From the NCBI RefSeq assembly GCF_013041805.1, contig NZ_JABDRI010000069.1:1-64000 (forward strand): a DNA stretch of 64,000 nt, given 5' to 3'. This DNA comes from Lutibacter sp. (GTDB lineage Bacteria > Bacteroidota > Bacteroidia > Flavobacteriales > Flavobacteriaceae). A program made the translations under genes and the position numbers. The notes beneath the pieces were generated by a model, which searched no databases, was not told the origin of the DNA, and worked only from the letters and a program-made list of their open reading frames with translations. This document shows positions 45,774 to 53,919 of the stretch, piece after piece; position 1 is the stretch's first letter; every line of letters begins with the position of its first letter.

Positions 45774-46352
45774 TTAATCATTGTCCTTTGTACCATTTAT
45801 TATCCTTGAAATAATTCCTTTTTGATCTGTAAATTCTGCTATTAACACACCTGCCAAATGGATGGCTATAAACGCTATCAGATAATAAATACCAAGTACA
45901 TGGATTTCTTCCATGAGCTTTTTAAATTCTTTTGGTCCTAATTCTATAATAAGTCCAGTAGCAAGTGAAGTAATTACACAGAAATAAAAAATGATATATG
46001 CCCATTTCTGAAATTTCATTTTAGTTGATAGGTTTTTGTCAAAAGGATTTTGAATTTTCATATGTCCGAATGCAGGAAGTATAAAACGAATACTAAATAA
46101 TCCAACCAATACATAACCAATGTAAATATGCCAATTCCACATAGGTTGTCTTATTTTTTTTGCTAATGCAATGAGTTGTTCCTGTGATAAAACCTGATTA
46201 GAATCTTTTAGGTAATCCTGTATAATAGCTGCCACATTATACTTATTCATCCACGTTAATCGTAAAAAAATTGTAAGTAGTAGTATCAAAAATGAAACAG
46301 CTATTGTCCAATGAATTATTCGGAATACTTTAGAATACTTTGTTTTTTTCAT
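45774..46352 (-). CDS. Cytochrome b561-type di-haem membrane protein
   Basis: Membrane cytochrome b of the bacterial b561/Ni-Fe hydrogenase b-subunit family, 192 aa from the ATG at 46352 (MKKTKYSKVFRIIHWTIAVS). An in-frame ATG eight codons upstream (46376) is possible but adds a non-conserved segment. Four hydrophobic helices are seen (about residues 13-33, 76-98, 121-141 and 158-178). Haem-ligand histidines are in RIIHW (helix 1), NWHIYIGY (helix 2), and EEIHVLGIYYLIAFIAIHLAG (helix 4). It likely moves electrons between the quinone pool and a periplasmic partner. It stands alone; the saccharopine-like gene lies 63 bp downstream on the same strand. Confidence 0.86.
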   Translation of the reverse strand: MKKTKYSKVFRIIHWTIAVSFLILLLTIFLRLTWMNKYNVAAIIQDYLKDSNQVLSQEQLIALAKKIRQPMWNWHIYIGYVLVGLFSIRFILPAFGHMKIQNPFDKNLSTKMKFQKWAYIIFYFCVITSLATGLIIELGPKEFKKLMEEIHVLGIYYLIAFIAIHLAGVLIAEFTDQKGIISRIINGTKDND

Positions 46353-46478
46353 GATGTATATTTTAAGATGAAGCATAATGCTATATGTTAAAATTACAAT
46401 TTATTTTCAATAAAATATTTTTTTATTCATTGTTTACATATCAAATCCTTGATTAAGTTTTAGAATCTAAAACTCATT

Positions 46479-48995
46479 TTAAAACGCAAATCTTAAAGAA
46501 ATGTTTGGAGTAAATTCTAAAGATTTAATATTTATTTTTGTTGCTTTTGAATTATCGTTCTGATCCACAACATAATAAGAATCTAAAATTTGTTCTTTAT
46601 TAAACACATTTAGTATACCAAATTTTACAGTAGAATTAATGGTTTGTGTTTTTAAAAAGAGGTAATTTATGGAGAAATCAACTCTACTATATGCTTTTAA
46701 TCTTTCTTTATTTAAGGAAGCGTAATTAACGATGGTGAAATTTCCATCTTTTTTTGTTTCCTGCCCTGTATTTATGGTTGTAAAAGGTCTACCAGATTTT
46801 ATAATACCACTAATAGAAGTGTTTAAACGCTTGTTAAAATGAAAATTAAAACCAATGGTTGAAGAATGCCTGATATCGTTGTTGCTTGGAAAATAGTTTT
46901 CATTTATTTGTTTAAATAATAAATCACTGTTACTTAAAGTATAGGATAACCAAAAATCTGCTTTTTTACTTCTTTGGTTCAATAAAACCTCTATACCGGT
47001 AGATTTTTGTTCCCCGTCCAATCTTTTATTTTGAATTTGATTTTGAAAACCTTGCCCAGATATTAAAATTCCATTGATGTTTTTATAAAAGAAATTTAAA
47101 TCAATTAGCAATTTACTTTTTTTGAAAGTGCTTCCTAATGAAAATTGGGAGCTTTTAATTAAAGGTATATTTTCATCAGCCATAACCCATCTTCGGGTTT
47201 CAACACCTAAAAAATCATCCAAATAGTCAATTACTTGAGATGTATATTGCGATTTTGCTTCAAATTGAGTATTTATACTTAGGTTTTTATCAAAAGAATA
47301 GTTTACATTAATTCGTGGTTCAATAGTAGTTTGGTCAATTTTATCAAAATAATTAAACCGAACTCCGGTACGTACAAACCAACGATTATCTTTATAATTG
47401 GACTCTAAAAATGCTGAATGGTTTAGCATAACACTTCTTTGTATTCTGTTATACAATGGGTTATCTACATTAGTTCTACTTAAAACGCCTGTTTCATTTA
47501 ATTGATATCCACTTTCTAAACTAAAATAATTGTTAAAGGTGTAATTTAAAGTTGTTTTTATTGAATTTTCAAGCACTTCATTTTCTTGAATTACCAATTG
47601 TTGTTGGTTATTTTGATAGTTGTTGGAAAGCAATGAATATTTGGTATAATATCCAGAAATTTTAGCAATTAGTTTACTGTTAATTTTTGAATTATAAGTA
47701 AGTCCAATGGCGTCCGAATTTTGTTTTATTTTATCTGCCAGATTACTTCCATCAACTTCATAATAATTAAGATCATTATTAATTTTAATATAATTTACTT
47801 TAAGATTGTTGTTGCTATTTAGGTTGTATAATAAACTAACATTTACGTCATAAAAGCTGAAATCGGAATTTGAAGTACTTGTTCCAACAGCACTATTTTG
47901 AAATGTTTTGTTAAAGTAGGAGTCATAAGTTGGAGTATTAAACCAATTGTTATTGGAGTTCCTAAAAGAGGTTTTTAGATTTAGTTTATCATTTACAGGC
48001 ACTGTTATAAAACCATCATAAGATATAAAATTAGCACCAAACCCTCCTTTCAATATTTGAGTTAAAGCATTGTCTGTTTCTAACAACATGGTACTTGAAA
48101 CACCATCATTATATTTAGCACTAGTTCCGTTTTTTATAATTGAAATATTTTTTGTTAAGTAAGGATTTACAGCAGAAATAAGTCCAAAAAAATGTGTTGG
48201 GTTGTACATTTTTATATTATCCCAAAAAATAACATTTTGATCGCTTACACCATTTCTCACATTTATATTGGAAATTGATTCATTGGGGCTTTCAACACCT
48301 GGAAGTATTTGAGAAGTTTGAAGTAAATCAGGTTCAACTTGACCAGATAAAATGTCAAAATTTTTAGTATCTAATTGAACCGTTCCATCTTTTAGTTTAG
48401 ATAAACTGTTGGCTATATAGTTTTTAATAAAAACTTCGTTCAGTTCAATTTCTTCTTCAACCATAGTCAATTTTATACAGTCAGAGACTGGAGAAATTAA
48501 CTCATTTACATTTTTTAGGATTGATTTATTCCCTAAATATTGAAATTTAATATTGTCTGAAATTTTTAAATTTTTTAAATAAAATATACCATTTTCATCA
48601 GAAGTTGAACCATATAATTTACCTGAAACTATTATTGAAGCCTTATTTATTGGGATGTTATTTTTATCAACGATGGTTCCGCATATTTCTATATTCTCTT
48701 GTTTTGGGGCAATTGAAATAAATCGCCCATCAATTTTTGTAGCAATTAAAAATGTTTGGGAATTTATATACGTAATTATTTCATTTAATGTTGAAATGTC
48801 CGAAATTTTTTCCTGAAGTTGAATATTTTCAATGTTTGAAATTACATAAGAAAATTTAACATCAAACTTATTTTCAACCAAGTTTAATTCTTCTAGAAAA
48901 GAAAAACTATTTTGTGAGTTTACTTTTAAGGAAGAGAACAGAATAATAAAAAGCGGCAGCCAAAATTTATTTCGATAAAATAATTTCATTATCAT
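46479..48995 (-). CDS. TonB-dependent outer-membrane receptor with STN signalling domain
   Basis: Outer-membrane transducer of 838 aa. A Sec signal peptide (about residues 1-28, ending near KVNSQ) is followed by an STN-type secretin/TonB domain (about 30-95), a carboxypeptidase-regulatory-like beta sandwich (about 103-180, IEICGTIVDKNNIPINKASI), a plug (about 190-320, with NINVRNGVSDQNVIFWDNIKM) and a 22-strand barrel ending NISLRFAF. The STN domain is where FecA-like receptors contact FecR. It overlaps the fecR-like gene by 29 bp (23 bp if the second ATG at 48989 is used), so the two are translationally coupled. The ligand is unknown; no siderophore gene is nearby. Confidence 0.93.
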   Translation of the reverse strand: MIMKLFYRNKFWLPLFIILFSSLKVNSQNSFSFLEELNLVENKFDVKFSYVISNIENIQLQEKISDISTLNEIITYINSQTFLIATKIDGRFISIAPKQENIEICGTIVDKNNIPINKASIIVSGKLYGSTSDENGIFYLKNLKISDNIKFQYLGNKSILKNVNELISPVSDCIKLTMVEEEIELNEVFIKNYIANSLSKLKDGTVQLDTKNFDILSGQVEPDLLQTSQILPGVESPNESISNINVRNGVSDQNVIFWDNIKMYNPTHFFGLISAVNPYLTKNISIIKNGTSAKYNDGVSSTMLLETDNALTQILKGGFGANFISYDGFITVPVNDKLNLKTSFRNSNNNWFNTPTYDSYFNKTFQNSAVGTSTSNSDFSFYDVNVSLLYNLNSNNNLKVNYIKINNDLNYYEVDGSNLADKIKQNSDAIGLTYNSKINSKLIAKISGYYTKYSLLSNNYQNNQQQLVIQENEVLENSIKTTLNYTFNNYFSLESGYQLNETGVLSRTNVDNPLYNRIQRSVMLNHSAFLESNYKDNRWFVRTGVRFNYFDKIDQTTIEPRINVNYSFDKNLSINTQFEAKSQYTSQVIDYLDDFLGVETRRWVMADENIPLIKSSQFSLGSTFKKSKLLIDLNFFYKNINGILISGQGFQNQIQNKRLDGEQKSTGIEVLLNQRSKKADFWLSYTLSNSDLLFKQINENYFPSNNDIRHSSTIGFNFHFNKRLNTSISGIIKSGRPFTTINTGQETKKDGNFTIVNYASLNKERLKAYSRVDFSINYLFLKTQTINSTVKFGILNVFNKEQILDSYYVVDQNDNSKATKINIKSLEFTPNISLRFAF

Positions 48996-49878
48996 TTATT
49001 CGATAGTTAATATTCAAAGGTAATGTAATGGATTTAATTGCTGAATCTATATTGTTATTACTAAAGCCTCCGGTGAAAAGAACATTGGTATTTATTGCTT
49101 TTGAAATAATTTTCACTTTAAACTGCCTTTCAAATTCAGCCAAAACTTCGGTATATGACTCTTCTATAAAAGAGCTTTCATTATTTAACCATAAAGGCCC
49201 TGAACTTTCAGTTTTTTGTAGCTTTATTAAAGTGTTATTTGTTGTTAGTTGTGCGCTTTCTCCTTTTGCTAAAATAACTTTACTGTTGTTATGAGAAACG
49301 GCTACACTACCTTCATAGCAAAAAACTCTGAAAGAATTTTCCCTTGATTTCACATTAAATTTTGTACCTAAAACCTCTATAGTTCCTTGTTCAGTTTTAA
49401 CATTAAAAGTACTACCTTTTTTTACGCTAAAATAAGCTTCACCATTCAATTTTAGTTGTCTTTTTGTTTTGAAAGAAGTTTTGCTGTAGGTTATTTGAGA
49501 AACTGCATTTAAGGTAACCGTTGATTCATCGGGTAAAACAAAACTCTTGTTTTCAGCAAAACCGGCTTTAAGGGTTTCTTGGTTAAAGTTGAATAGAAAA
49601 TAAGTTATTCCAATCAATAGTGTAATTGATGCGGCAACTTTGAAAGCCAAGTTTCTGTTGAATGAAATTACTTTTGTTTTTTTCTTGGTGCGATTTGCAA
49701 TTCGAGCTTTAAAATCTTGTAGTGCCACCGTTTCGTTTACTGAAGTTAAATTAATATTTTCAGCTTCTTCAACAATATTTTTATATAATTGATAGTCATC
49801 AGTTTTGTGAAATGCAACCAATTCTTCATCGGTCATTTCATCATTTAACCATTTTGATATGTTTTTTAAGTTTTTCAT
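48967..49878 (-). CDS. FecR-family anti-sigma factor/signal transducer
   Basis: Single-pass inner-membrane regulator of 303 aa that links the TonB receptor to the ECF sigma factor. The N-terminal cytoplasmic part (about residues 1-82; ISKWLNDEMTDEELVAFHKT) binds the sigma factor. One membrane helix spans about 83-102 (VAASITLLIGITYFLF). The periplasmic FecR domain has FVLPDESTVTLNAVSQITYS (about 116-135), LNGEAYFSV (about 148-156), GTIEVLGTKFNVKS (about 167-180) and a C-terminal DUF4974-type STN-like end (about 235-303). A bipartite motif, AGGTAGGGT-N12-AGTTGTC, lies 12-39 bp before its start and is likely the promoter for fecR and the receptor. Confidence 0.94.
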   Translation of the reverse strand: MKNLKNISKWLNDEMTDEELVAFHKTDDYQLYKNIVEEAENINLTSVNETVALQDFKARIANRTKKKTKVISFNRNLAFKVAASITLLIGITYFLFNFNQETLKAGFAENKSFVLPDESTVTLNAVSQITYSKTSFKTKRQLKLNGEAYFSVKKGSTFNVKTEQGTIEVLGTKFNVKSRENSFRVFCYEGSVAVSHNNSKVILAKGESAQLTTNNTLIKLQKTESSGPLWLNNESSFIEESYTEVLAEFERQFKVKIISKAINTNVLFTGGFSNNNIDSAIKSITLPLNINYRINDNEIILSK

Positions 49879-49889
49879 TCTATGTATAT

Positions 49890-49917
49890 GACAACTAACT
49901 ATTAATTAACCCTACCT
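49890..49917 (-). promoter_or_regulatory. Candidate ECF sigma promoter before fecR
   Basis: On the minus strand AGGTAGGGT (49917-49909) is followed after exactly 12 bp by AGTTGTC (49896-49890), and the fecR ATG begins 12 bp further on. The same two blocks with the same 12-bp spacing occur on the plus strand at 50540-50567. It does not fit the housekeeping TAnnTTTG type. Confidence 0.75.
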
Positions 49918-50430
49918 TTAATTAAATTCTTCAATCTGTGATCTTAAAGCCAATAAGGCTTTACTCATTCTTTTTTCAACAGCTTTTACTGAGATCCCTA
50001 ATAATTCAGCGATTTCTTTATATTTTTTACCTTCAACTCTATTTAATAAAAATACTTCACGACTAGCATCGGTTAAGTTAGCAATGGCTTTTTCAAGCTT
50101 ATATTTAAACTCTTTTTGTCTTAAAGTGTCTTCAGGTGATTCTGTATCAATATATAAGTTTGTGGAATTATTTTCATAATTTTTAACCACCTTTTCATGC
50201 TTTTTAATGTTAAGAAATAAATTGCTGGCAATAGAAAATAAATAAGATTTTGCCTTGAGAAGGTCAAATTTATTGCAATTCTCCCATATTTTTATAAAGG
50301 CCTCTTGTACAATATCAAGCGCTTCATCTTTATTCTTGTTCTTTATAAGAATAAACCTAAAAACATGATTAACCTCTTGTTTATAAAACATGTCAAACTG
50401 TTTTTCATCACATAAATCGGTAAAATTCAT
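49918..50430 (-). CDS. ECF-type RNA polymerase sigma factor (FecI-like)
   Basis: Sigma-70 family sigma factor of 170 aa with regions 2 and 4 only. Region 2 (about residues 12-75) includes VFRFILIKNKNKDEALDIVQEAFIKIWENC, and region 4 (about 108-165) includes LTDASREVFLLNRVEGKKYK and EIAELLGISVKAVEKRMSKALLALR, the helix-turn-helix that reads the -35 element. It is followed by fecR and a TonB receptor, the classical cell-surface signalling order. On the minus strand TATTTTTG (50465-50458), an exact TAnnTTTG match, lies 27 bp before its ATG, so it is probably made from a housekeeping promoter while its targets use the AGGTAGGGT-N12-AGTTGTC motif. Confidence 0.95.
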   Translation of the reverse strand: MNFTDLCDEKQFDMFYKQEVNHVFRFILIKNKNKDEALDIVQEAFIKIWENCNKFDLLKAKSYLFSIASNLFLNIKKHEKVVKNYENNSTNLYIDTESPEDTLRQKEFKYKLEKAIANLTDASREVFLLNRVEGKKYKEIAELLGISVKAVEKRMSKALLALRSQIEEFN

Positions 50431-50457
50431 AGGTATTCTTTTCTTTTAAGGATGCTA

Positions 50458-50465
50458 CAAAAATA
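50458..50465 (-). promoter_or_regulatory. Housekeeping -7 element for the ECF sigma gene (TATTTTTG)
   Basis: Minus-strand TATTTTTG, an exact TAnnTTTG match, 27 bp upstream of the sigma gene ATG at 50430. It indicates constitutive or sigma-A-dependent expression of the ECF factor. Confidence 0.5.
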
Positions 50466-50539
50466 GAAATAAAATATGAATGAATAATTTTCATAAAAAT
50501 AGAAGGAATTTATGTTTTTGTAAAAAAAAGTAAAATTTT

Positions 50540-50567
50540 AGGTAGGGTACTTTAAAAGAGAGTTGTC
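50540..50567 (+). promoter_or_regulatory. Candidate ECF sigma promoter before the DUF4382 lipoprotein gene
   Basis: AGGTAGGGT (50540-50548), 12-bp spacer, AGTTGTC (50561-50567), with the gene ATG at 50630. Identical in both blocks and spacing to the motif before fecR on the other strand, while the spacers differ. This points to one regulon that includes the divergent secreted-protein gene. Confidence 0.75.
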
Positions 50568-50629
50568 TTAGTAGTGTAAATCGGAAATATTTCGAATAAA
50601 AAATAAATAATAATTTAAAACTTACAATT

Positions 50630-51571
50630 ATGAAAACAAGAAATTTATTTACAGCAACAATTTTAGTATTAGCAATCACCTTTTTAGCTTCTTGCTCTAA
50701 TGACGATGATGCAACGTATGGCGATGAAAAAAGCCAAACCAATTTTTATATGACAGATGCACCAACAGATAATTCAAATGTTAAAGGTGTAATAGTAACA
50801 GTAGCAGATATAAAAGTTAATGGTGTTTCTTTAGAAGGTTTTACAAAAACAACTATAGATTTAATGCAATATCAAAATGGCATGACTAAGTTGTTAGGAA
50901 ATTTAGAGTTAAATACGGGTACTTATTCAAACATTAGTATTTTATTAGATAATGAAACGGATGAGAGTGGTAATGCACCAGGTAGTTATGTTTTATTTAC
51001 TGACGGTAGCTCGCAAGCAGTTGCTACTACAACAAATCAAATTAATATTAATGATTCTTTTGAAATTTTAGCCTCAACTACAAATGATATCGTTTTTGAT
51101 TTTGATATTAGAAAATCTTTAGTTTTTGACACAAACGGAACTTTTAAATTTGTTTCAACCAGCGAACTTTCTAATAGTATAAGAGTTATAAACAAAGAAA
51201 AATCAAGTGATATTTCAGGAAATGCTAGTGATCCTGAAAATACTTCTGATAAAATTATAGTTTATGCTTATGAAAAAGGAAAGTATAATGCGAATACAGA
51301 AGAATCAGAACAAGGAAGTGGTGTTACATTTTCACACGCAGTAACGAGTTCTGTTGTTAGTAATATATCAGGAAGTTATGAATTAAATTTTTTAGAAGAA
51401 GGAGAATATGAATTACACTTTGTTTCATATACAGATAATGATAATAATGGAGAGTTTGAGTTTAATGGAGAGTTAATGGCTGAATCTATTACTGGTGCCG
51501 ATTTAAATAATATTTCAATTAATTCGTCATTAAATTTAAACATTGCAGTTACATTAAAAACAAAATCATAA
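50630..51571 (+). CDS. DUF4382-domain lipoprotein
   Basis: Surface or periplasmic lipoprotein of 313 aa. MKTRNLFTATILVLAITFLASCS carries the lipobox LASC, with the lipidated cysteine near residue 22 followed by SNDDD, an acidic stretch typical of flavobacterial lipoprotein export signals. The DUF4382 domain (about residues 36-185) shows FYMTDAPTDNSNVKGVIVTVADIKVNG, GMTKLLGNLELNTGTYSNISILLD and FVFDFDIRKSLVFD-like segments. The C-terminal part (about 190-313) is a beta-sandwich-like region with EEGEYELHFVSYTDNDNNGE, resembling carboxypeptidase-regulatory folds. It is transcribed divergently from the FecI-like gene and preceded by the candidate ECF promoter. Function of DUF4382 is unknown. Confidence 0.87.
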   Translation: MKTRNLFTATILVLAITFLASCSNDDDATYGDEKSQTNFYMTDAPTDNSNVKGVIVTVADIKVNGVSLEGFTKTTIDLMQYQNGMTKLLGNLELNTGTYSNISILLDNETDESGNAPGSYVLFTDGSSQAVATTTNQININDSFEILASTTNDIVFDFDIRKSLVFDTNGTFKFVSTSELSNSIRVINKEKSSDISGNASDPENTSDKIIVYAYEKGKYNANTEESEQGSGVTFSHAVTSSVVSNISGSYELNFLEEGEYELHFVSYTDNDNNGEFEFNGELMAESITGADLNNISINSSLNLNIAVTLKTKS

Positions 51572-51655: not shown

Positions 51656-52240
51656 ATGAGAACATTAGTAATAATTTTAACCTTTGTAGTATCATTCAAT
51701 ATAAATGCACAAAGCACAAACAAAGTAGATAAAGATTCCTCATTTGGTATAAAAGGAGGCTATAATTTAGCTTCGGTTAGAAATGCTGATGGAGATGAAA
51801 CAGATCAAAGGCAAGGATTTCATGTTGGTTTTTTTGGAGAATCATACCTAACAAATTTTTTAGCTATCCAAACAGAATTAACATACTCACAACAGGGTTA
51901 TAAAATTGAAAACAGCAATTATAGGTTAGAGCAAAAAATTGATTATATTAACTTACCTTTAATGTTAAAACTATATCCTACGCAAGTCTTTTATTTGGAA
52001 GCCGGACCGCAAATTGGGTATGCAATTTCACATAAACAAGAAATTGAAACATTTGCGATAAACAACACAAATACCTACGAGCCTAATTCATTTGATTGGG
52101 GCGTAAATTTTGGAGTTGGTTTTAAATCAGAAACAGGCCTTATTTTAAGTGCAAGATATCACTATGGTTTGGGAAAAATCTATGAAGAAACTAGTGATTA
52201 TAACAACGTATTACAAGTATCATTAGGATTTGAATTTTAA
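51656..52240 (+). CDS. Outer-membrane beta-barrel (porin-like, PorT-type) protein
   Basis: Small eight-stranded outer-membrane barrel of 194 aa. MRTLVIILTFVVSFNINAQS is a Sec signal peptide ending in NAQ. The barrel domain has alternating strands beginning SSFGIKGGYNLASV (about residues 26-39), QGFHVGFFGESYLTNFLAIQTELTYSQQGY, YINLPLMLKLYP and ending LQVSLGFEF, with the terminal phenylalanine recognised by the BAM complex. This matches the PF13568-type family. It follows the DUF4382 gene by 84 bp with a hairpin in between, and may be partly co-transcribed with it. Confidence 0.88.
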   Translation: MRTLVIILTFVVSFNINAQSTNKVDKDSSFGIKGGYNLASVRNADGDETDQRQGFHVGFFGESYLTNFLAIQTELTYSQQGYKIENSNYRLEQKIDYINLPLMLKLYPTQVFYLEAGPQIGYAISHKQEIETFAINNTNTYEPNSFDWGVNFGVGFKSETGLILSARYHYGLGKIYEETSDYNNVLQVSLGFEF

Positions 52241-52390: not shown

Positions 52391-53071
52391 ATGAAATTTT
52401 TTGTTAAAAAAATAGTTGCCATAGTTTTTTTATTATTCCTAACAATAGGTTGTTTAGAAGAAATAGATATTGATGAAGGTGAAAATCCGAATACAAACAA
52501 CAGTAATTCGGAAACAACAAATCACTATAAAAGAATTGGAATGCATGATGGCTCTTTTGATGATATTATAGATAACAACTCTTGTAATTCGGTAGTATTA
52601 CCAGTTTCTTTATTGGCCAATAATACACCTTTGACCCTTTCAAGCTCCTCAGATTATCAGTTGGTTATTGATATTTTTAATTTAACACCAATAAATACAG
52701 ATACAATTGTTTTTAATTTTCCTATAACAATTATGAATCAAGATTATAGTCAAATTTCCATTACGAATGCATCTCAACTCGATGATTTATCTACGATATG
52801 TGATGTGGCAATTAATACTAATTTAAGCGCAATAAATTGTGTAGACATAATATACCCAATTAACATATCGTTATTTAATACTAATACAAATCAAACAACT
52901 ATTATTTCAATTGATAAAGATCAAGATTTGTTCAACTTTATGGCTAATTTGTCGATAAATGAAGCTTATAGCGTTCAGTACCCTATAAAGACAACAATAA
53001 CTGGCAATGTTAATTTAACAGTTAGCAGTGACAGTGAATTGAAATCAATAATAAATGATTGCATAAATTAA
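52391..53071 (+). CDS. Lipoprotein of unknown function
   Basis: Unrecognised lipoprotein, 226 aa. MKFFVKKIVAIVFLLFLTIG precedes the lipobox TIGC with the lipidated cysteine near residue 21, then an acidic LEEIDIDEGE stretch, which in flavobacteria often marks surface exposure. The mature part is a low-complexity Asn/Thr-rich linker (about 30-48) followed by a domain (about 50-226) with four cysteines (near residues 63, 137, 150 and 224) and many beta-like segments such as YPINISLFNTNTNQTTIISID. Similar Asn/Thr-rich domains occur in secreted flavobacterial proteins, but no family is recognised. It is co-oriented with the metalloprotease gene 80 bp downstream. Confidence 0.75.
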   Translation: MKFFVKKIVAIVFLLFLTIGCLEEIDIDEGENPNTNNSNSETTNHYKRIGMHDGSFDDIIDNNSCNSVVLPVSLLANNTPLTLSSSSDYQLVIDIFNLTPINTDTIVFNFPITIMNQDYSQISITNASQLDDLSTICDVAINTNLSAINCVDIIYPINISLFNTNTNQTTIISIDKDQDLFNFMANLSINEAYSVQYPIKTTITGNVNLTVSSDSELKSIINDCIN

Positions 53072-53151: not shown

Positions 53152-53919
53152 ATGAAAAATATTTTAAAAAGTATTGTTTTAATTGCATTCTTATTTTTGA
53201 GCTGCAGTAAAAATGATAATGTAGAGAATGTTTTAATTAATGACAATTATCCATATATAAAGCAAGTTGGTTATTCAGCAAACGATATTTTATCTGATAA
53301 AATATTTAAGAATATTTACTTTGAAGTGATGTATGTTGATGGTTTTAAACCAACGGACAATACGTTGAATAATCTTAAAAGTTTTATTGAATCTAGAACC
53401 TATAAAACAGCTATTGTAGTTGAAACAAGATTGATTGACATTTCCTTAAAGTCAATCTATTCAATGGATGATGTAAGAAATATAGAAGACGCTAATAAAA
53501 CAATGTTTACCGATGAAAATCTATTGGTAATTTCTGCCCTTTTTTTAAATGGAAATTCATCGAGTAATACAGATACTGGAGTAGTGTTAGGAACGGCCTA
53601 CAGAAACACCTCGTTTGTTATGTTTGAAGAAACCATACATTCTTTTTCTGACAGTCCTTTTGAGCCAAGTCGTGAAGTTTTGGAATCTACAGTAATGCTC
53701 CATGAATTTTGTCACTTATTAGGGTTGGTAAATATAGGCACTAATATGGTTGAAGATCATCAGGATACCGAACACGGAGCACATTGTACTGACCAAAACT
53801 GCTTAATGTATTATCAAGTTGAAAACGGAAAAAGTATTAAAGACATGATTGTTGGTGGTGCAATGCCACAATTAGATTTATTTTGTTTAGAAGATTTAAA
53901 AGCCAATGGAGGAAGATAA
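53152..53919 (+). CDS. Lipoprotein metalloprotease of the metzincin type
   Basis: Putative surface or periplasmic zinc protease of 255 aa. MKNILKSIVLIAFLFLSCSK has the lipobox FLSC (cysteine near residue 18). The zinc site is HEFCHLLGL (about residues 183-191), giving HExxHxxG. The third ligand expected at the next position is replaced by asparagine (LVN), but about 18 residues later comes HCTDQNCLMYY (about 210-220), which fits the archaemetzincin pattern HCx4CxM including the Met-turn. The loop between them (NIGTNMVEDHQDTEHGA) looks like an insertion. Substrate unknown. It is the last gene of the plus-strand block that starts at the DUF4382 gene. Confidence 0.85.
   Translation: MKNILKSIVLIAFLFLSCSKNDNVENVLINDNYPYIKQVGYSANDILSDKIFKNIYFEVMYVDGFKPTDNTLNNLKSFIESRTYKTAIVVETRLIDISLKSIYSMDDVRNIEDANKTMFTDENLLVISALFLNGNSSSNTDTGVVLGTAYRNTSFVMFEETIHSFSDSPFEPSREVLESTVMLHEFCHLLGLVNIGTNMVEDHQDTEHGAHCTDQNCLMYYQVENGKSIKDMIVGGAMPQLDLFCLEDLKANGGR

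Follow-up and report, generated by a model that had tools for sequence, protein, structure and literature searches.

The closest regulatory precedent for the cassette studied here is HasI/HasS/HasR, the heme signalling system of Serratia marcescens. Its sigma factor is described as driving the anti-sigma and receptor genes and not its own gene, with the -35 block TTTACGGGTTT common to the anti-sigma and receptor genes (PMC9249621). The ferric citrate system FecI/FecR/FecA of E. coli consists of an ECF sigma factor, a FecR-type regulator and a TonB-dependent receptor; the sigma gene is driven by the primary sigma factor, and fecIR is described as not autoregulated (PMC9249621). In Bacteroides, ECF/anti-sigma pairs that adjoin a TonB-dependent receptor are described for polysaccharide loci (PMC11501099). 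According to a passage of 2020, no motif was known for any ECF sigma factor of Bacteroides thetaiotaomicron (PMC7366714), and a motif has since been proposed for two of them (PMC12596196). The non-canonical promoter PM2 of this species, proposed for SigW-1/SigH-1, is described with TGTT near -10 and an element near -30 (PMC7366714, PMC12596196). SM6 of Flavobacterium psychrophilum is described as a flavobacterial ECF-type promoter with CGT in the -10 region that serves several type IX secretion genes (PMC9723704).

We analyzed a stretch of 64,000 nucleotides from Lutibacter sp., referred to below as the window. It contains two copies of a bipartite motif on opposite strands, and we put the probability at roughly 0.9 that these serve as promoters for the ECF sigma factor next to them, within a surface-signalling cassette of the FecI/FecR/TonB-receptor type. 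The relevant features are as follows.

49918..50430, minus strand: ECF sigma factor, 170 aa (PF08281, E 1.3e-16; PF04542, E 3.5e-9)
48967..49878, minus strand: FecR-type anti-sigma factor, 303 aa, adjoining the sigma gene (PF04773, E 1.2e-19; PF16344 FecR_C, E 3.7e-8)
46479..48995, minus strand: TonB-dependent receptor and putative transducer, 838 aa (CarbopepD_reg_2, E 2e-9; Plug, E 4.2e-5)
50630..51571, plus strand: DUF4382 lipoprotein, 313 aa, gene 1 of the divergent operon (PF14321, E 6.5e-20; lipoprotein signal by eye)
51656..52240, plus strand: outer membrane beta-barrel protein, 194 aa (PF13568, E 3e-27)
52391..53071, plus strand: lipoprotein with the signature DGSxDDxxDxxSC, 226 aa, of the family found most commonly behind the promoter
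53152..53919, plus strand: metzincin-like lipoprotein, 255 aa (HExxHxxGLxNxG ... HC....CLM stretch)
49890..49917, minus strand: putative ECF-type promoter of fecR-receptor (-35 GTAGGGT, N13, -10 GTTGTC)
50540..50567, plus strand: putative ECF-type promoter of the divergent operon (GTAGGGT, N13, GTTGTC, TTA)
50458..50465, minus strand: TATTTTTG, upstream of the ECF sigma gene, a -7 box of the TAnnTTTG type used by the primary sigma factor, read from the sequence

The Pfam domains of the 170-aa sigma factor correspond to regions 2 and 4 only, and the protein scores 124 bits against TIGR02985 (Sig70_bacteroi1), slightly below the cut-off of 126.4. The Plug domain of the receptor scores 24.4 bits, slightly above its cut-off of 23.9. 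No Pfam match to an STN domain appeared up to E 5; about 75 residues, a suitable length, precede the carboxypeptidase-like domain. The DUF4382 protein reaches 72.2 bits against PF14321, for which the cut-off is 25. No Pfam match was obtained for the 52391-53071 lipoprotein, and no Pfam family above cut-off for the 53152-53919 lipoprotein, which gave a weak archaemetzincin match (E 0.077); its zinc-site columns (HExxHxxGLxNxG, then HC and CLM) are invariant in 19 homologues. The AlphaFold model of the 52391-53071 lipoprotein is of good confidence (pLDDT 87.6) and shows repeated strand-strand-strand-helix units. Searches with this model found no structure by Foldseek at E 0.001 (best 0.1) and none by VIA-align at Z>=5 (best 4.1), and such a missing match does not show a new fold. 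The model of the DUF4382 protein, built with 5 sequences, was too poor for a structure search (pLDDT 44.4). Profile searches against the PDB brought no convincing match: the best E was 0.1 for A2 and 0.032 for A3, and A4 had no match up to E 1.

Like HasI/HasS, the cassette has its anti-sigma gene under what appears to be a sigma-type promoter and its sigma gene outside such control. It differs from the Serratia system as described in having one site for fecR and the receptor and a second for a divergent lipoprotein operon, and in the promoter sequence itself. The set of an ECF sigma factor, a FecR-type regulator, a TonB-dependent receptor and a probably primary-sigma-driven sigma gene resembles FecI/FecR/FecA, whereas fecR here has its own putative sigma-type promoter, unlike E. 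coli fecIR. Scores against the NCBIfam FecI and FecR models are far under their cut-offs. Among the nine cassette and flanking genes scanned we found no heme or hemophore family, save a cytochrome b561 beyond the receptor, and neither a SusD nor a glycoside hydrolase family. Judged by gene families, nothing in these nine genes points to iron. The cytochrome b561-type protein (PF01292, E 2.8e-27) is encoded at 45774-46376, directly downstream of the receptor on the same strand. The sequence-only reading had the system control a lipoprotein outside the usual iron-uptake theme; control of this kind has precedents, as polysaccharide loci are described as controlled by ECF/anti-sigma pairs in Bacteroidota (PMC11501099). 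Of the known promoters, PM2 is similar in its TGTT near -10 and its element near -30; GTAGGGT is absent from its description in the passages cited above. SM6 shares with the sites here that it is a flavobacterial ECF-type promoter and differs in its CGT and in the genes that it serves. No description of the motif or the cassette was found among the open-licence literature matches listed, as far as titles and abstract starts go. An ECF reclassification study of 2021 reportedly contains predicted group motifs.

The sequence-only reading had described the motif as AGGTAGGGT-N12-AGTTGTC, and its coordinates, blocks and spacer length all hold. The pattern has 2 matches in the window, at 49890-49917 (minus strand) and 50540-50567 (plus strand); the 9-bp and 7-bp blocks are the same at both sites and the 12-bp spacers differ in sequence. 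It was absent from 100 dinucleotide shuffles of the window. A scan of the whole 2.81-Mb assembly of 107 contigs, with the spacer at N11-13, returned these 2 matches at the cassette and no third copy, and the reversed control gave 0. With a position matrix derived from homologous sites, including three near relatives of the window locus, the two sites score 42.2 and 37.5 bits and are the sole window matches above 3 bits; the maxima in 5 mononucleotide-shuffled windows were 1.0 to 5.7. The exact 9+7-bp identity of the two sites is partly accidental. The strongly conserved part over homologues is GTAGGGT-N15-TGT[C/T], usually followed by TTA, and the leading A and the bases directly before TGT are partly variable. 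In the own genome, GTAGGGT-N13-GTTGTC with up to 2 mismatches gave 19 matches against 43 for the reversed control; such loose matches are therefore meaningless and were dropped as evidence. A fourth own-genome match (C52:55318) was also set aside because it lies antisense inside a gene; the own-genome sites otherwise all belong to the two cassettes of this genome.

The minus-strand site is located after the sigma stop codon, in the gap that precedes the fecR ATG. From ECF geometry, transcription would start near 49880 and leave about 2 nt ahead of this ATG. The plus-strand site ends 62 nt before the DUF4382 ATG, with a predicted start near 50577 and a leader of about 53 nt. The sigma gene itself was said to have a housekeeping promoter instead, in agreement with TATTTTTG at 50458-50465 on the minus strand, 27 nt upstream of the sigma ATG. 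TAnnTTTG is given as the consensus of the Bacteroidota primary sigma factor (PMC7366714).

Orthologues of the sigma factor (at least 82% identity) are encoded by 8 of 39 relatives, 40 genomes with the own one. An alignment of these loci showed both blocks kept throughout, with the core TAGGGT-N13-GTTGTC at both sites in 9/9 Lutibacter loci (8 relatives and the own). All 6/6 columns of TAGGGT and of GTTGTC are invariant at both sites, compared with 43/168 flanking columns of the divergent region. The Lutibacter spacers are also rather conserved, with 9 and 7 of 13 columns invariant. A TAnnTTTG box before the sigma gene was seen by eye in 8/9 of the loci, L011 being without it. Because the predicted fecR leader is 1 or 2 nt in orthologues other than L004, fecR may be nearly leaderless when transcribed from this promoter in those strains. 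In L004 (G015) the distance from the fecR promoter to the start codon of fecR is about 90 bp longer than in the other orthologues, with the site intact. A search for the exact core in 25 genomes (own genome in, G022 and others out) yielded 19 matches, 16 of them these cassette sites, against 5 for the reversed control. Of the other three, one precedes fecR in a paralogous cassette; the remaining two, in G013 and G004, run antisense within TonB-receptor-like ORFs and were discarded as evidence.

The arrangement extends well beyond the genus. At least 454 sigma homologues were confirmed on contigs of one genome per species, and we examined the best 80 loci, in which sigma identity is at least 47% over the best segment; L122-L124 among them are Lutibacter-type orthologues that are also in the genus set. 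A receptor homologue is present in 79/80, the exception (L195) ending shortly after sigma. The word TAGGGT occurs in 73/80 within the 180-nt stretch starting 20 nt before the end of the sigma stop codon, where 0.024 per locus is expected, and in 72/80 upstream on the divergent strand (460 nt). A family matrix built on 73 fecR sites finds the fecR site in 75/80 loci, the divergent-operon site in 72/80 and both in 71. As the matrix was built on fecR sites, the count of 75/80 is partly circular; the divergent count of 72/80 and the bare TAGGGT count of 73/80 are not. Elsewhere in the 797 kb of these loci the matrix has 23 matches, of which 20 are on the divergent strand, farther out on the divergent side, and may represent extra promoters.

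Spacing is rigid. TAGGGT and TGT[C/T] are 15 nt apart in 140 intergenic pairs, and no other spacing from 5 to 25 has more than 9; the spacer sequence is mostly variable over the best 80 loci. Stringency towards sequence as well as spacer length is described for ECF sigma factors (PMC6411747). The sigma gene again stands apart from its presumed targets. A TAnnTTTG box lies within 90 nt upstream of it in 37/80 loci (reversed word, 4/80). A matrix match above 12 on the sigma strand, up to 350 nt upstream, occurs in 1/80 (L166), and bare TAGGGT within 300 nt upstream in 9/80. Over 74 loci the median length of the predicted fecR leader is 12 nt, and 64 of these leaders measure 5 to 18 nt.

Nine of the 80 loci are without one or both normal sites (L125, L152, L155, L161, L166, L178, L196, L199 and L201), L125 being interrupted by a contig end. 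L155, L161 and L201 form a clade of related cassettes without the motif, and in L155 and L161 the divergent gene is SusD-like by eye. This suggests that the promoter switched together with the target in that clade. The lack of the motif in L155 and L161 also sets the promoter type apart from the Bacteroides polysaccharide loci as described.

The strict form GTAGGGT-N15-TGTYTTA has 197 matches in 85/199 Flavobacteriaceae genomes, with 23 for the reversed pattern. Since 116 genomes of other families of the class gave 2 matches against 9 in the control, the promoter type in its strict form appears to be confined to Flavobacteriaceae. We inspected the flanks of 30 loci from the family-wide search, which hold 40 distinct sites. 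An ORF of at least 100 aa starts within 60 nt after the predicted +1 at 30/40 sites. Many matches inside coding regions would speak against promoters; 2/40 sites fall inside such an ORF, compared with 66/102 ordinary TAGGGT words (first 3.5 kb, best 80 loci). One genome, G224 (L236-L249), which has sites in common with the Spongiivirga locus L196, contains 14 strict matches. Eight of the 14 have no ORF of at least 60 aa within about 300 nt, and three of these eight have the common downstream sequence AAAATGCCCCTTT, which may mark a small RNA or a repeated element.

The last base of the -10 element is informative about the reader of the two sites. It is the same at both sites in 67/71 loci (C/C 43, T/T 23, A/A 1; kappa 0.88), and when partners were shuffled the mean was 36.9 agreements, with 67 reached in 0 of 20,000 shuffles. 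The column just before TAGGGT has a within-locus kappa of 0.70, and the one two bases before has 0.32. Five columns (the three that follow GGGT, a further spacer column and the base preceding TGT) lie between 0.29 and 0.55, and the rest of the spacer and the downstream columns do not exceed 0.16. Such agreement within a locus would be expected if a single factor read both sites. On the sigma tree the last base changes 5 times per site, with 2 independent pairs on supported branches, and the divergent base follows in 1.9 of 2 on average; the control columns listed (17, 28-31) do not. With so few independent changes no significance can be claimed for the C/T agreement after descent, and the phylogeny-corrected test was dropped for this reason.

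Sigma residue 56 has the highest mutual information with this base at both sites. In alignments with SigW and CnrH it stands directly after the F of the region 2 loop. In sigma-H of M. tuberculosis, the loop residues F72, R73, T76 and N77 are described as contacting the flipped -10 base (PMC6411747), and F55-D56 would correspond to F72-R73. Residue 56 has 3 changes on the tree, and D or N at this position also goes with T-type fecR sites (L169, L170, L181, L132, L182), so this residue can be no more than one part of the code. As the sole reader of the last base it was rejected, the association being confounded by descent.

The paralogous cassettes bear on whether another ECF sigma factor of the same genome might read the sites, and for such cross-talk there are some grounds. 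Ten matches to the sigma factor, itself included, occur in the own genome at E <=0.001, and one of the paralogues, C23, is 52% identical and has GTAGGGT sites of its own, so that the -35 block is common to both own-genome cassettes. Five paralogous cassettes with sigma factors about 50% identical (L012-L015 and C23) have GTAGGGT upstream of both fecR and a divergent lipoprotein gene. Save at the L014 fecR, the -10 block in these cassettes is not GTTGTC; C23 has AATGTT and ATTGTT, against GTTGTC in the window cassette. In addition, genome G192 has one C-type and one T-type cassette, and the site of its DUF4382 gene matches the adjacent C-type. We consider cross-talk improbable and the adjacent sigma factor the reader of the two sites. 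Neither site is present in L016 and L017, where the sigma factor is 44-46% identical.

The sequence-only reading had named fecR-receptor and the DUF4382 gene as targets. The first is supported by the fecR site across the family, and the second needs to be redrawn as a four-gene operon whose commonest member is the 52391-53071 lipoprotein. In the best 80 loci this lipoprotein is found on the divergent side in 71 by single-linkage clustering (58 by direct tblastn) and as the first divergent ORF in 63. The metzincin-like lipoprotein is found in 34/80, the barrel in 28/80 and DUF4382 in 4 or 5/80. From these counts a surface lipoprotein would be the core output, in many loci accompanied by a barrel and a putative protease, and DUF4382 was given up as the defining target. 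The divergent lipoproteins of L151 and L182 are 440-600 aa long and have cysteine-rich stretches with Kazal-type inhibitor repeats by eye.

DUF4382 nevertheless appears to recur as an additional target, including in genomes that encode the sigma factor at another place. PF14321 is found in 99/199 Flavobacteriaceae genomes, and the site is present at 0/30 of the best-scoring PF14321 loci. Among 20 chosen lower-scoring loci, 8 have a site above 12 bits and L109 one at 11.7. Twelve of these 20 align with the window DUF4382 protein at 43-69% identity, and 9/12 have the site, which is lacking in L102, L107 and L118. The complete window arrangement recurs in L103 and most of it in L112, L105 and L111; in the last two the site stands before a gene run that begins with the 52391-type lipoprotein and has DUF4382 in second place. 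Five sites (L104, L106, L108, L109, L110) have no sigma gene in the fetched stretch, and all five genomes encode the sigma factor elsewhere. The last -10 base of these unlinked sites is T, which is also that of the sigma factor's own two sites. They are weaker, at 11.7 to 22.9 bits, and in the -35 block three read TTAGGGT and one GAAGGGT. G067, whose DUF4382 gene is without a site, has no such sigma factor at E 1e-30; G063 has the sigma factor and a DUF4382 gene without a site, and in G192 the second DUF4382 gene (L118) is likewise without one. On balance the pattern supports action of the sigma factor in trans.

The unlinked sites could also be taken to mean that the motif is the operator of an unlinked activator or repressor common to fecR and the divergent operon, and from sequence data alone such a regulator could likewise bind at fixed places near starts. 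However, the motif is bipartite with one rigid spacing and without an inverted repeat, and it lies at promoter distance from the start codon. Its -10 base varies between cassettes and agrees within one, the own-genome sites belong to the two cassettes save for one antisense match, and the sigma factor is encoded in five out of five genomes where a DUF4382 gene has an unlinked site. An operator thus appears even less probable than cross-talk. Chance or plain common ancestry of the intergenic DNA is highly improbable: the 9 Lutibacter loci are close kin, with a mean column identity of 0.79 in the divergent region outside the motif, but the shuffles and the reversed control were empty and the arrangement recurs with sigma factors about 50% identical and a mostly variable spacer.

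The assignment of the two sites to the local ECF sigma factor, already made in the sequence-only reading, is strongly supported because of their position, rigid spacing, conservation, within-locus agreement and near absence inside genes. The sigma gene is probably transcribed from its housekeeping TAnnTTTG promoter. A signal from the receptor would pass through FecR and free the sigma factor, which would then read GTAGGGT (-35) with region 4 and TGTC (-10) with region 2 at their fixed spacing. At the first site the sigma factor would raise fecR and the receptor and thus feed back on itself. At the second site it would turn on DUF4382, the outer membrane barrel, the lipoprotein and the metzincin-like lipoprotein, presumably as a one-operon transcript. 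As a tentative guess, the cassette could be a cell-surface sensing and processing system for perhaps proteinaceous material. More doubtful is a broader picture in which the family holds many insulated ECF sigma-promoter pairs with a common -35 block, told apart by the last -10 base, with residue 56 and neighbouring residues of the sigma specificity loop as its readers. In that picture the divergent lipoprotein and the metzincin-like protein would be the working partner or ligand of the receptor, and the cassette its own surface-sensing system for neither iron nor glycan uptake.

The promoters of most Bacteroidota ECF sigma factors are unknown, and here a promoter class, together with its anti-sigma feedback and target operon, can be read from sequence across a family. 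The scope is wider than first claimed, that of a family-wide promoter class. Regulon prediction, C versus T specificity and the role of DUF4382 become directly testable from here, as does that of a lipoprotein family with no clear structural match, and the sites are candidate inducible promoters for flavobacteria. Across Flavobacteriaceae, the same promoter type very probably switches on the signalling genes and the neighbouring surface-lipoprotein genes.
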